Positions 133 through 59,285 of a stretch of 64,000 nt of DNA are shown here, in pieces. Within the stretch, counting starts at the first letter, position 1. Every line of letters begins with the position of its first letter. This DNA is from Neobacillus sp. YX16 (GTDB taxonomy: Bacteria; Bacillota; Bacilli; Bacillales; Cytobacillaceae): positions 1,688,001-1,752,000 of the forward strand of contig NZ_CP126115.1 of the NCBI RefSeq assembly GCF_030123505.1, in the 5' to 3' direction. Under the pieces are notes generated by a model, which saw nothing but the letters and a program-made list of their open reading frames with translations, did not search any database and was not told the DNA's origin. The translations under genes were made by a program, and so were the position numbers.

Positions 133-499
133 GGCTGTGTTAAAGGAAACTGTTGATTTTGAACCCTGTTGATTTATGCGGAAGGCGCGAGACTCCTCGA
201 AAATGCTATCGCATTTCCTTCGTGCGTGGGCAGATTCGAGGATGAAAATCAGTGTCCTGCAGGATGATGGGACAGGGGAGACCCCGCTTATCTCTTAGCG
301 CCGAGGAGTAGGAAAAGCGGAAGCGCCTTGTACAGCCCCGACAAGCGCTGGAGGGCCTAACGATGAAGTCGTTCTTTGACTTCAACGTTGGGACCGAAGC
401 GACTCGAGGGGCTAGGCGCTGCAGCTAGACAGGCTTCCCGAACCGCCTGCGGAAAGCGAAGCGCATGGAGCACAAATCAACTGGCCATATAACACAGCC
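133..499 (+). repeat. Dispersed GC-rich repeat, copy A (367 bp)
   Basis: It begins GGCTGTGTTA and ends TAACACAGCC, a perfect 10-base terminal inverted repeat. Inside, CTGTTGATTT on the left matches CAAATCAACTG-type sequence on the right. The core is much richer in G and C than the flanks and holds landmarks shared with the other copies: AAAATGCTATCGCATTT, the CCGAGGAGTAGGAAAAGCGG stretch, a TGAAGTC/GACTTCA hairpin and GGCGCTGCAGCTAGACAGGC. It lies between a terminator and the SRPBCC gene and contains no credible gene. Confidence 0.85.
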
Positions 500-527
500 T
501 TACATTTAAAATGAAAGAGGGATACCA

Positions 528-977
528 ATGCCTAGCGAACTGCAACAAATAGAATTAGCTATCCCCATAACCGTGATTTGGGACTTCATTAGAGATGCAA
601 ATAATTGGGCGCCGCTTGTGCCTGGTTATATACAGCATGAACAAATGAATGACAACATAATAACGTGGGATTTTAAAAGTGACCTTGGCATAATGAAAAA
701 AAAGGTAAGTCTGGTTATTGATATTAAAGAGTGGAACGAACCGAATAGAGTAAGCTTTGAATTAAGGCGTACGAATGAAAAGTATATTGGTGAAGGTTAT
801 TTTGAAGCACAAGCACTCAATAAAAATAAAACAAGGTTGACAGCATTTCTTGAAATTAATGCGAGTGGAGCACTAGGTTCATTGGCAAATTCGCTTTTTA
901 AAAATGCGATTCCAATATCAACGGATGAAGTGGCCTCAGCCATCTCTTTAAAACTGGAAGAATTCAACAAAAGGTGA
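528..977 (+). CDS. SRPBCC (START-like) family protein
   Basis: This 149-residue protein resembles the SRPBCC/CoxG-like ligand-binding fold. The N-terminal pattern 'LAIPITVIWDFIRDANNWAPLV' style (helix-grip opening, W-x-F-I-x-D) and the later G-x-G-Y-F turn support this. CoxG-like members bind hydrophobic ligands or assist enzyme assembly, but no CO dehydrogenase gene is nearby, so no specific role can be given. The start follows GAAAGAGGGATACC. It appears monocistronic, with repeat copy A upstream and a weak hairpin downstream. The fold call is fairly safe; the function is unknown. Confidence 0.7.
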   Translation: MPSELQQIELAIPITVIWDFIRDANNWAPLVPGYIQHEQMNDNIITWDFKSDLGIMKKKVSLVIDIKEWNEPNRVSFELRRTNEKYIGEGYFEAQALNKNKTRLTAFLEINASGALGSLANSLFKNAIPISTDEVASAISLKLEEFNKR

Positions 978-988
978 TAAATTGCAGT

Positions 989-1021
989 AACAATTCGAAA
1001 AAAATTCGGGTTGTTTTTTTT
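989..1021 (+). terminator. Weak terminator after the SRPBCC gene
   Basis: AACAATTCG and CGGGTTGTT can pair with G-U pairs and are followed by a run of Ts. Confidence 0.45.
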
Positions 1022-1116
1022 TATTATTTAAAAAATTTATAACATGAGGCCAAAAGATATGTTATATTAATAAATAAAAAATTTAGTCAATTAACTAGTA
1101 CAGGGAAGGTGAAAGC

Positions 1117-55623: not shown

Positions 55624-55688
55624 CATTAGAATTATCCATTTAGTTTTATAAATAGAAAATAAACCATATAGTGAATAGGGGGATTGCT

Positions 55689-57179
55689 TTGGAGACATTT
55701 ATTCTCTCTATAGACCAAGGTACAACCAGCTCAAGAGCTATTCTATTCAATAAGCAGGGAAAAATTGTTTTTTCTGCACAAAAAGAGTTCACTCAGTATT
55801 TTCCTAGACCAGGCTGGGTGGAGCATAATGCAAATGAGATTTGGGGTTCAGTGCTGTCAGTTATCGCTGAAGTATTGTCTGAATCGGGAATAAAACCAGA
55901 GCAGATTGCTGGTATAGGTATCACCAATCAACGGGAAACCACGGTAATTTGGGATAAGGAAACAGGAGAACCTATATATAATGCAATCGTTTGGCAATCA
56001 AGGCAAACAAGTGATATTTGCGAGGAATTGAAATTAAACGGCTATAGTGACCTTTTTCGCTCGAAAACGGGGCTTCTTATAGATGCCTATTTTTCAGGAA
56101 CAAAAGCAAAATGGATTTTGGATCATGTTGATGGTGCGCGTGAAAGAGCATCGCAAGGCAAGCTTTTATTTGGAACGATTGATACTTGGATCGTTTGGAA
56201 GCTTTCTGGAGGTCGTGCACATGTAACCGACTATTCCAATGCATCAAGGACACTAATGTTTAATATATTTGACCTCCAATGGGACGATGAATTATTGAAG
56301 ATATTGGATGTTCCTAAATGTATGCTTCCTGAAGTGATGCCCTCGTCTCAGGTTTATGCGAAAACCGTTGATTATCACTTTTTTGGCAGGGAAACACCAA
56401 TCTCTGGGATTGCTGGCGATCAGCAGGCAGCACTTTTCGGGCAGGCCTGTTTTGAGCCGGGTATGGCTAAGAATACGTACGGAACAGGTTGTTTTATGTT
56501 GATGAATACTGGAGATAAAGCAGTCCGGTCAGAGAATGGCTTATTGACAACTATTGCCTGGGGGCTAAACGGGAAGGTAGAATATGGTCTTGAAGGAAGT
56601 ATCTTTGTTGCAGGCTCTGCTATTCAATGGCTTCGTGATGGTTTGAGGATGTTTAAGGAAGCTAAGGATAGTGAGTCCTATGCTGGCAGAGTGGAATCCA
56701 CGGATGGTGTATATGTTGTTCCTGCATTTGTTGGATTGGGGACGCCCTACTGGGATAGTGATGTACGAGGTGCTGTTTTTGGCTTAACAAGAGGAACCAC
56801 GAAGGAACATTTTATCCGGGCCACTCTCGAATCATTAGCCTATCAAACCAAAGATGTACTATCAGCAATGGAATCAGATTCATTAATAAAACTGAAAACC
56901 CTTCGCGTAGATGGTGGTGCCGTGAAAAATAATTTATTAATGGAATTCCAATGTGATATTTTAAATGTACCAGTAGAAAGAACGAAAGTAAGTGAAACAA
57001 CTGCGCTTGGAGCTGCCTATTTAGCAGGTCTTGCAGTAGGGTTCTGGGAAAGTCAGGAAGAAATATCAAAACAATGGGCAACCGATCGAAAATTCATTCC
57101 GAATATGGCAGAAGAACAGCGTGACAGCCTATATAATGGCTGGAAAAAAGCAGTGGAGGCTGCGATGACTTTTAAATAA
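55689..57179 (+). CDS. glpK: Glycerol kinase
   Basis: This 496-residue FGGY kinase makes glycerol 3-phosphate. It has [13 protein letters not shown] at the start and [21 protein letters not shown] near 350. The TTG at 55689 gives the normal N-terminus [11 protein letters not shown] and follows AGGGGGA; a GTG at 55671 would precede that site. Histidine 230 in DYHFFGRE matches the site phosphorylated by HPr in Firmicutes, so PTS activity should stimulate it. No glpF or glpP gene is in the window. Confidence 0.95.
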
Positions 57180-57214
57180 AATTAATGGTCTTTTTCTATT
57201 TAGGAGGAAAAGGG

Positions 57215-58870
57215 ATGAAATTTTCTAACATAAATAGAAATGAAATGATTGATAGCCTTAAAAATAAGGAATTTGATGTTCTAGTTATTGGCGGGGGGAT
57301 TACTGGTGCAGGGATTACACTGGATGCTGCAACTAGAGGTATGAAAACTGCACTAGTTGAAATGCAGGATTTTGCTGCTGGAACATCTAGCCGTTCAACC
57401 AAATTGATTCATGGCGGACTTCGTTATTTAAAACAATTTGAAGTAAAAATGGTAGCTGAAGTAGGTAAAGAAAGAGCAATTGTTTTTGAAAACGGCCCTC
57501 ATGTAACAAAACCTGTATGGATGTTACTTCCGATTTATAGAGGAGGAACCTTTGGAAGGCTGAGCACATCGATAGGGTTAAGACTGTATGATTTCCTTGC
57601 GGGAGTAAAAAGTAATGAGCGAAGAACCATGTTAACAAAAGAACAAACATTAGAAAAAGCACCTTTACTAAAGAAGGAAGGATTAATAGGGAGCGGCTAC
57701 TATGTCGAGTATCGTACGGATGACGCGCGTTTGACAATTGAAATCATGAAAGAGGCATATCTATTTGGTGCAGCACCAATAAATTATACAAAGGTTGTTA
57801 ACTTTGTTTATAAAAATCAAATGGTTGCTGGTGTCGTTGTTGAGGATCAGTTAACAGGAGAAAAATATCAGATTTGTGCAAAAAAAATTATTAATGCTGC
57901 GGGTCCATGGGTGGAAGAAGTGCGTGAACTCGATCATTCTAAAAATGGGAAAACCTTGCAATTGACTAAAGGTGTCCATCTTGTGATAGATCGAAGCACT
58001 TTTCCCTTGAACCAATCCATTTATTTTGACACCCCTGATGGAAGGATGGTATTCGCTATCCCTCGTGATGGAAAAACGTATGTTGGCACAACGGATACTT
58101 TTTTTAATCAAGATAAGCTCCAGCCTTTCGTTACTAAAAACGATCGAGAATACTTAATCAATGCAATTCAATATATGTTTCCTGAAGTGGCAATTAACGA
58201 AGCTGACATTGAATCAAGCTGGGCTGGGTTACGGCCACTCATTTATGAGGAAGGCAAGGAAGCATCGGAAATATCACGTAAGGATGAAATTTGGGAGTCA
58301 AAAACGGGTTTGCTTACGATAGCTGGAGGAAAATTAACGGGTTATCGAAAAATGGCAGAAGCCATTGTTGACCGATTATCAGTAAGTCTGGAAAAGGAAC
58401 AAAGAATCAGTTACCAAAACTGTAAAACAAAGAAATTGCCTATCTCCGGTGGTCATGTAGGAGGTTCGCACAATTATCCTGCTTTTACAAAAGAAAAAAC
58501 GGCTAAGGGTATCGAAAAAGGGCTAACTCCATTAGAGTCAGAAAAGTTAGCTCTCATGTATGGTTCCAATGTTGATGTGGTTTTTGATTTACTATTGGAG
58601 AATAAAAGTGATGCGTTAAAATACGGTATTCCAAATCAGCTGTTTGCAAAGCTAGTTTATTCAATCCAATGTGAAATGGTCGCAACACCAACAGATTTCT
58701 TTACAAGGAGAATTGGAGCTGTCCTATTCAATATTCATACTGTCCACTCCTATAAACAACAAGTAATAGATTATATGGCCGAGAAATTGAAATGGGATGA
58801 CACAATCAAAGAATTGCACACAAAAGAATTGGAAATGGCTCTGAAAATTGCATCTGGTACTAGTAATTGA
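57215..58870 (+). CDS. glpD: Aerobic glycerol-3-phosphate dehydrogenase
   Basis: This 551-residue FAD enzyme oxidises glycerol 3-phosphate to dihydroxyacetone phosphate and gives electrons to menaquinone at the membrane. It has [19 protein letters not shown] and [22 protein letters not shown] 57215 follows GGAGGAAAAGGG. The gene lies 36 bases after glpK, so they form an operon. In B. subtilis GlpP antitermination controls glpD; I saw no such terminator between them. Confidence 0.95.
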
Positions 58871-58940
58871 TAGCAGGAGAAAAAAATAAAATAGCGATAC
58901 AAGATGATGAGCTGCCTAAATGGTCAGCTTATTTCTTTTT

Positions 58941-59285
58941 GGCTGTGTTACGGTAACTGTTGGTTTAGTATGTTGATTTGTGCGGAAGGCGCGAGACTCC
59001 TCGAAAATGCTATCGCATTTTCTTCGTGCGTGGGCAGATTCGAGGATGTAAATCAATGTCCTGCAGGAGGACGGGACAGAGGAGACCCCGCTTATCTCTT
59101 AGCGCCGAGGAGTAGGAAAAGCGGAAGCGCCTGTACAGCCCCGACAAGCGCTGGAGGGCCTGACGATGAAGTCGTTCTTTGACTTCATCGTTGGGACCGA
59201 AGCGACTCGAGGGGCTAGGCGCTGCAACTAGACAGGCTTCCCGAACCGCCTGTAGCACAAATCAACAGCCTTATTTAACACAACC
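58941..59285 (+). repeat. Dispersed GC-rich repeat, copy E (345 bp)
   Basis: The ends are GGCTGTGTTA and TAACACAACC. TGTTGATTTGTGC (58971-58983) pairs perfectly with GCACAAATCAACA (59255-59267). TTTTT flanks both ends. The right-hand module of copies C and D is missing, and the junction follows CCGCCTG. It lies after glpD. The rest of 59286-59581 is the ptsH upstream region. Confidence 0.88.

Follow-up and report, generated by a model that had tools for sequence, protein, structure and literature searches.

Five GC-rich repeats of Neobacillus sp. YX16 belong to a MITE family, probably mobilised by IS1595-family transposases, with a nested order-wide repeat

Five repeats and their family in the genome

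The analysed window is a 64,000-bp stretch of Neobacillus sp. YX16 (contig NZ_CP126115.1, positions 1,688,001 to 1,752,000). It contains five repeats, designated copies A to E, which a sequence-only reading had grouped into one family. The grouping was confirmed, as all five aligned end to end over their full length. Copy A (133..499, plus strand) is 367 bp long, copy B (25458..25811, minus strand) 354 bp, copy C (31972..32322, plus strand) 351 bp, copy D (54541..54969, plus strand) 429 bp and copy E (58941..59285, plus strand) 345 bp. The limits first proposed for A, D and E were correct; the start of B had been placed one base late and that of C one base early. The copies sit between larger ORFs, in agreement with the intergenic placement claimed earlier, and several small overlapping ORFs look mechanical. 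Their GC-content is 0.53–0.56 versus 0.37 in the window, consistent with the GC-rich core described before. Their ends are of the GGCTGTGTTA type, and the second inverted pair further in, TGTTGATTT / AAATCAACA, is present as well.

The copies exhibit a modular architecture. An inner 120-bp repeat, referred to here as the rod, is intact in four of the five: at 312..431 (+) in A, 25527..25646 (−) in B (match G000:C1:1713523-1713652, trimmed to the 120-bp rod), 54722..54841 (+) in D, where it measures 120 bp, and 59116..59234 (+) in E. In copy C an internal deletion removed 76 of the 120 bases, leaving a 44-nt remnant at 32152..32195 (+). A gap between two GAAGCG motifs had been noticed in C and is real; its size is 76 bases (inner block of 44 vs 120), not about 107. 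Copy D has every module, including a left-hand hairpin at 54607..54668 (+), missing in most members of the 182–185-bp class, and a right-hand hairpin at 54875..54935 (+), the edges of both being set by eye. The right-hand module is also present in C and absent from A and E, as first read, and from B as well. The earlier description of the window as lacking a transposase agrees with the results for the three types searched: IS1182 and Y1 transposases gave no match in it, and the one IS1595-type transposase found in the genome lies outside.

A search of the 6.23-Mb genome with copy D found at least 53 matching stretches; scoring covered 40 of the 205 initial candidates, so that the true number may be higher. 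The exact 10-mer end GGCTGTGTTA occurs 109 times in the genome versus 4 times for the reversed pattern; these two results exclude chance. The family comprises at least 84 copies, 76 parsed and 8 BLAST places with unparsed ends. Copies elsewhere in the genome and in relatives had been predicted and were found; the predicted hundreds per genome would be compatible with the count but are not demonstrated by it, at least 84 being counted and the 109 exact ends, scaled by the 4 in the window, suggesting 100 or more. Element size ranges from 92 to 434 bp (78 parsed pairs), with no transposase gene inside. Among the named 8-kb loci there was one clear copy of the outer family (L317, 186 bp, duplication 8/8) and one doubtful copy. 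Six plasmid records matched at ~76% over the left core; phage records searched with the family gave no match. A literature search for the sequence letters of the ends and the rod returned no relevant paper among the matches listed, in a collection whose coverage mostly leaves out subscription papers.

Insertion of the elements is marked by a target duplication of exactly 8 bp, perfect in 21 of 78 cases (shuffled mean 0.3, maximum 2). Duplication lengths of 6, 7 and 9 bp gave perfect counts of only 1, 1 and 0. At the window copies none is perfect: the flanks match at 6 of 8 positions in A (TTACCCTT / TTACATTT), 4 in B, 7 in C (TAATTAAT / TAATTAAA), 3 in D and 7 in E (TTCTTTTT / TTTTTTTT). Another genome of the same species, G062, was queried at 20 sites that include no window copy, and 8 of them were empty. 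Four empty sites hold one exact 8-bp target, three have a single substitution and one is partly lost. The other 12 comprised two occupied sites, one with another small element and nine without a clear outcome. At site 13, common to G062, the interior differs there. The suggestion of a non-autonomous, MITE-like element is supported by the 8-bp duplications, by these empty orthologous sites of family members other than the window copies, and by IS-like ends. The five repeats are members of a MITE family that has hopped around the genome.

Differences between copies had been attributed to module loss. This was partly borne out: deletions were seen, but the inner block originates as a separate repeat, so that the modules are of two origins. 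A 44-nt remnant like that of copy C is also present in L044 and L045, and in one orthologous copy the interior was lost between 7-bp direct repeats. Interior modules may generally be lost later through such deletions between short direct repeats, as shown for this one orthologous pair; orthologous alleles reveal how modular repeats of this sort lose parts.

The nested 120-bp repeat

The rod is a separate repeat, far wider spread than the MITE. The rod model matched in 222 of 299 sampled genomes of the order, and 33 of 37 pairs covary; a structured repeat is present in about three quarters of these genomes, with a fold that is evidently selected. Standalone rods occur in this genome (L137–L141) and in relatives (L142–L150), rods also form tandem arrays, and orthologous alleles without the rod were found away from the MITE. 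The rod has no terminal inverted repeat, and no regular target duplication was seen. TAA is often located upstream, and a short ATTCTCGAAGT-like 3' tail is present at times. Rod alignment A2 included 13 of 15 rods, leaving out L139 (internal deletion) and L140 (insert); alignment A5 consists of the 50 rows that remained of A3 (64 rows) once 12 antisense matches, a fragment and a weak row had been removed. Against Rfam (4227 families), the window at gathering score matched only a SAM riboswitch, located elsewhere in the window; L001 had no match at E ≤ 1, and six loci at E ≤ 1 gave three weak matches, all outside rods. The alternative initially offered, a mobile structured RNA, holds in so far as the inner block is a separate structured repeat, while the outer element itself is a MITE.

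We tentatively propose, at somewhat less than even odds, that the rod represents a previously undescribed class of structured mobile elements in the order (Bacillus and its relatives). Despite turnover of the sequence, its fold would be preserved through extensive covariation, with one strand favoured; the rod forms tandem arrays, nests in MITEs and other repeats, and may be moved by a host or other enzyme acting on folded RNA or a single DNA strand. The rod hairpin, the arrays and the absence of terminal inverted repeats and regular target duplications would also suit a REP-like single-strand element moved by a Y1 (IS200/RAYT-type) transposase. However, a rod lay within ~1.5 kb at none of 16 Y1 transposase loci in the eight genomes searched, and three of eight rod-bearing genomes had no Y1 match, which makes Y1 mobilisation unlikely.

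Fold, driver and target sites of the MITE

The whole outer element has a rod-shaped fold (z = −7.45). Of the 55 pairs in its alignment, 8 show changes in both partners, against a shuffled mean of 4.4; independent covariation events are few because the 18 sequences come from about two lineages. Covariation of the hairpins, expected from the sequence-only reading, was present in both the outer element and the inner rod. The ratio of G-U to A-C cells was 65:5 and 105:10 when pairs in which G-U is the rule were included, which inflated it; with such pairs dropped, it fell to 37:4 and 35:10, the change from 65:5 to 37:4 reflecting removal of two pairs. In codirectional gaps, elements show a sense bias of 31 to 10 (p = 0.0015; the analysis covered the 64 elements, out of 77, that had an ORF on each side). 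The GC-rich interior appears to retain its fold better on one strand, which would fit transcription at gene 3' ends.

Fold, covariation, G-U bias and sense bias are all compatible with a family of structured RNAs, regulators or sRNAs, that multiplied through duplication and horizontal transfer and whose terminal repeats are simply a closing stem. The 8-bp duplications, the empty sites and the ends shared with IS elements point instead to a transposase, and the wide size range also argues against such an RNA. This explanation is largely refuted by the empty sites, and we regard it as very improbable.

The likely driver of the MITE is an IS1595-family transposase acting in trans, judging by the element ends. 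The search for a transposase with like ends led to IS1595-family elements of the genus, whose 24-base ends are near-identical: L116 and L128, each with perfect 8-bp duplications, begin with GGCTCTGTTAAAGGTAAATGTTGA, which agrees with the left end of the MITE consensus at 23 of 24 positions; their opposite end agrees at 19 of 24. Clear ends were recognised at 19 of 30 IS1595 loci, 16 of them with perfect 8-bp duplications, and the remaining 11 were without clear ends. Duplications of 8 bp are given for the family in its description (PMC8101967). The transposases of L116 and L112 (342 aa) contain DDE_Tnp_IS1595 and Zn_ribbon_IS1595. Exact GGCTGTGTTA ends were sought on the examined IS copies and not found, the ends there being GGCTCTGTTA, GGCTTTGTTA, GGCTATGTTA or AGCTATGTTA; four examined IS copies have a different end type, GGCTGTTTTC or variants. 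Only one IS1595-type transposase was found in this genome, at C1:2068617, split by a stop, and a search of G062 found none; present activity in this genome is therefore doubtful. IS1182 had been tried as the driver and rejected, the present genome having a single broken fragment; IS1595, tried next, fitted.

Some other transposase families also make 8-bp duplications. A different family with similar ends, e.g., of IS6 type, could drive the elements on that ground; with IS1595, IS1182 and Y1 as the types searched in this genome, the agreement at 23 of 24 end bases with IS1595-type elements from this genus leaves this very improbable.

The target sites demonstrated a preference for hairpins. Of 50 target sites, 34 had a hairpin of ≤ −10 kcal/mol within 48 nt, versus 11% of 600 control positions; the controls were drawn from one 64-kb window and are mutually non-independent. 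In a local comparison of sites with their own neighbourhoods, 36 of 49 ranked within the best quarter. Both tests (n = 50 and n = 49) used elements with no more than two duplication mismatches and enough flank. Many target-side hairpins are terminator-like, and a MITE settling next to them would occupy a low-harm niche.

Overall, we assign a probability of roughly 0.87 to the account in which the five repeats are non-autonomous MITEs mobilised in trans by IS1595-family transposases recognising 24–28-base ends. The enzyme would bind these ends and insert the element into an AT-rich 8-mer, mostly beside a terminator-like hairpin, the eight bases being duplicated. In all 26 readable G000 MITE copies, the rod or its 44-nt remnant lies at one common junction; because this junction is shared, rod insertion looks like one founder event. 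A single founder MITE may have taken up the order-wide rod at that position, after which the composite would have spread. The common junction would also fit the inner block being a mere module of the MITE, a highly improbable explanation already refuted by the standalone copies and further opposed by the tandem arrays, the matches in 222 of 299 genomes and the rod-less orthologous alleles away from the MITE.

Comparison with known systems

A high-copy repeat family now has a likely driver. The IS1595 family, according to its description (PMC8101967), combines a Zn-ribbon and DDE transposase with 8-bp duplications, and the MITE has similar duplications and near-identical ends. Unlike IS1595 elements, it has no transposase gene, the space between its ends being taken up by a structured, GC-rich core.

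REP elements are hairpin repeats resembling the inner rod (PMC2817692). REPs are short and flank a RAYT transposase gene, whereas the rod is 120 bp long and flanks none of the 16 Y1 genes examined.

The bcr1–bcr3 repeats of the Bacillus cereus group are intergenic, MITE-like and partly transcribed in UTRs, as stated in their description (PMC3446304); the present family is likewise intergenic, a likeness drawn from that description. It differs from bcr1–bcr3 in belonging to another genus and in having an IS1595-type likely driver.

BOX is modular, and RUP is linked to an IS. Both are short intergenic repeats of Streptococcus pneumoniae (PMC2267715), and the resemblance is one of description. 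Unlike in BOX and RUP, one module here is an independent, order-wide element.

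Copies, ends and fold of the outer family

The five repeats of the window (copy A, 133–499, plus strand; B, 25458–25811, minus; C, 31972–32322, plus; D, 54541–54969, plus; E, 58941–59285, plus) aligned over their full length, in agreement with the sequence-only reading of a five-copy family with shared ends, an inner inverted pair and a GC-rich core. The window spans bases 1688001–1752000 of a single contig (6,231,385 bases); a BLAST search with copy D returned at least 53 matching stretches in the genome (40 of 205 candidates scored). The exact end GGCTGTGTTA occurred 60 + 49 times, whereas its reversed form was seen 2 + 2 times. 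Parsing of loci around these places (100 of the 109 were among those listed) gave 78 end-paired places of 92–434 bp, with lengths clustering near 183, 245, 304, 351 and 427 bp; one, of 131 bp, was a chance pair. Leaving out this pair and a 275-bp element, and adding eight BLAST-matched copies with unparsed ends (at L010, L015, L018, L019, L032, L035 and L043, and the main one at L034), the copy number is at least 84. Scaling from the four of 109 exact ends that lie inside the window suggests more than 100. The predicted hundreds of copies per genome were not reached by this minimum count.

The 275-bp element (L053:2556–2830; L168) has the same ends, an unrelated interior and the target AAAGGAAA, and is common to both genomes of the species. 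A diverged outer-family core (~76%) was present on plasmids of Priestia and Peribacillus (L157:1501–1645 and L158:1501–1646), between gnd and a hypothetical gene, and four further plasmid records matched it. The SAM riboswitch (RF00162) at 35747–35856 of the window is ordinary.

A 184-bp MITE copy folded as DNA into one rod (−49.3 kcal/mol, z = −7.45), and copy D folded as RNA with z = −6.23. Covariation of the hairpins, another expectation from the sequence, was detected as both-sided changes in 8 of 55 pairs over 18 copies of 171–185 bp (against a mean of 4.4 in 500 shuffles, of which one was as high), in a structure derived from the same 18 sequences and hence biased in its favour; these changes mostly distinguish two core types. 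With two G-U-rule pairs left out, G-U cells outnumbered A-C cells by 37 to 4, which suggests that one strand preserves the fold better than the other.

Loss of internal modules was visible at one site (L011), where this genome and the other of its species each hold the element and share the duplication TTTTATAA: the element measured 427 bp in this genome versus 156 bp in the other, whose allele lacks the stretch between two TTCCGCA repeats. The deletion proposed for copy C was indeed located between its GAAGCG repeats, but its size is 76 bases rather than about 107; it leaves a 44-nt remnant of the nested 120-bp repeat (the rod), as at L044 and L045.

Mobility, target choice and the IS1595 family

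Perfect 8-bp direct repeats flanked 21 of the 78 parsed places (shuffled mean 0.3), with a sharp peak at this length (1, 1 and 0 perfect repeats of 6, 7 and 9 bp). On either side, the 8 flanking positions held A or T in a fraction of 0.81–0.97 of the copies, and the flanks of copies A to E matched at 6, 4, 7, 3 and 7 of 8 bases. Joined flanks of 20 perfect-duplication sites, all from copies other than A–E, were searched against five genomes of the genus. The anticipated empty orthologous sites were found at 8 of the 20 in another genome of the same species: four carried one exact 8-bp target, three a single substitution, and one had lost part of the target. Two sites were occupied in both genomes, one of them by the 275-bp element, and nine fell at contig ends or had missing flanks. 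The empty site L087 was likewise continuous in the other four genomes searched. Close to the orthologous target at one of the 20 sites, the same relative carried a near-perfect palindrome of ~65 bp with the MITE ends (L169).

The IS1595 DDE domain (PF12762) matched once in this genome; counting this genome, 25 of the 61 from the genus gave matches. Among 30 IS1595 loci examined, 19 had clear ends and 11 had none under the settings used; a perfect 8-bp duplication was present at 16 of the 19. Ends were of the (G/A)GCT-N-TGTTA type at 15 and of the type GGCTGTTTTC and variants at four. Transposase-bearing elements with similar ends exist: the ends at loci L116 and L128, GGCTCTGTTAAAGGTAAATGTTGA and GGCTCTGTTAAATTTTAATGTTGA, were identical to the MITE consensus ends, GGCTGTGTTAAAGGTAAATGTTGA and GGCTGTGTTAAATTAGGCTGTTGA, at 23/24 and 19/24 positions. 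Both IS1595 domains were present in the proteins of L116 and L112, and according to PMC8101967 members of the family usually have a Zn-ribbon and make 8-bp duplications. An IS1595 enzyme would probably mobilise the MITE in trans.

A single IS1595-type element was found in the genome itself (L096:950–2689, near position 2068617 of the contig), flanked by the duplication AACATAAA. A stop divides its transposase into two ORFs, of 106 and 233 aa. This element carries a glyoxalase-type passenger gene, and elements of 1740–1741 bp with the same ends were seen at L114 and L123. The passenger ORFs of two related IS1595 elements, L116:2109–2828 (239 aa) and L112:988–1299 (103 aa), had no Pfam match at E ≤ 0.01.

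Targets lay near hairpins. A hairpin of ≤ −10 kcal/mol occurred within 48 nt on either side at 34 of 50 sites, versus 11% of 600 AT-rich intergenic positions, all from the window. Ranked in this respect against other AT-rich 8-mers in the surrounding 400 bp, the target had a mean rank of 0.24 (expected 0.5), and 36 of 49 fell in the best quarter. By eye, these hairpins were often terminator-like with a T-run. Among 64 MITEs flanked on each side by an ORF, 41 sat between codirectional ORFs, and of these 31 were in sense and 10 in antisense orientation (p = 0.0015); the counts are approximate because ORFs were called mechanically. The MITEs may be transcribed.

The nested rod

The rod (54722–54841 in copy D) also stands alone in this genome (L137–L141, 72–95% identical) and in relatives (L142–L150); neither terminal inverted repeats nor a regular duplication were seen at these standalone copies. 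Within the MITE, 26 copies read in this genome held the rod or its remnant between GAGGAGTAG and GGCT, with GAGGAGCAG and a longer GAGGAGTAGGAAGTAG once each at the left junction. A pattern search picked up 33 copies that lack the rod, and 28 of them read GAGGAGGCT. Given this common junction, a single founder insertion probably gave rise to the composite copies. Relatives of the genus (L173, L174) had the rod at the same place in a different core type, through either descent or recombination; in other genera it appeared, by eye, at different places of similar cores (L196, L200, L201, L304).

In a related genus, rod-less alleles from other genomes were available for comparison at 6 of 7 rod loci queried. 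The cleanest pair was L179 versus L345, other pairs having diverged at the junction; at L179, L182 and L185 the missing piece comprised the rod plus AT-rich sequence 3′ of it. The motif ATTCTCGAAGT (≤3 mismatches) directly followed 21 of 62 rods not succeeded by another rod and was found further downstream of none of the 62. Rods also form tandem arrays with spacers of 1–5 nt, the one at L195 having at least seven units. In some rods (L234, L250, L303, L338, L344 and others) one arm bears additional small hairpins whose loop is RTCCT-like (e.g., GCACATCCTGTGC). A Y1 transposase as the rod's partner was unsupported, with no rod flanking the 16 Y1 loci examined.

A covariance model built from 13 rods found matches across the order, in 222 of 299 genomes and in 84 of 116 genera (best candidates scored, up to 12 per genome). 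Hosts among the matches listed (80 of at least 120 matching stretches) include Mesobacillus, Metabacillus, Lederbergia, Cytobacillus, Neobacillus, Peribacillus and Planococcus. In an alignment of 50 matches (48 distinct) fitted to the covariance model, both-sided changes occurred in 33 of 37 pairs, and 96.1% of cells paired, compared with 68.7% when shuffled and 33–41% when slid. G-U cells exceeded A-C cells by 35 to 10 without two G-U-rich pairs and by 105 to 10 with them.

Relation to known elements

The inner rod may represent a new class, and a composite MITE with a nested, order-wide structured repeat is what sets this family apart. The outer family is a probably IS1595-driven MITE with marked target choice and joins a known kind of element.
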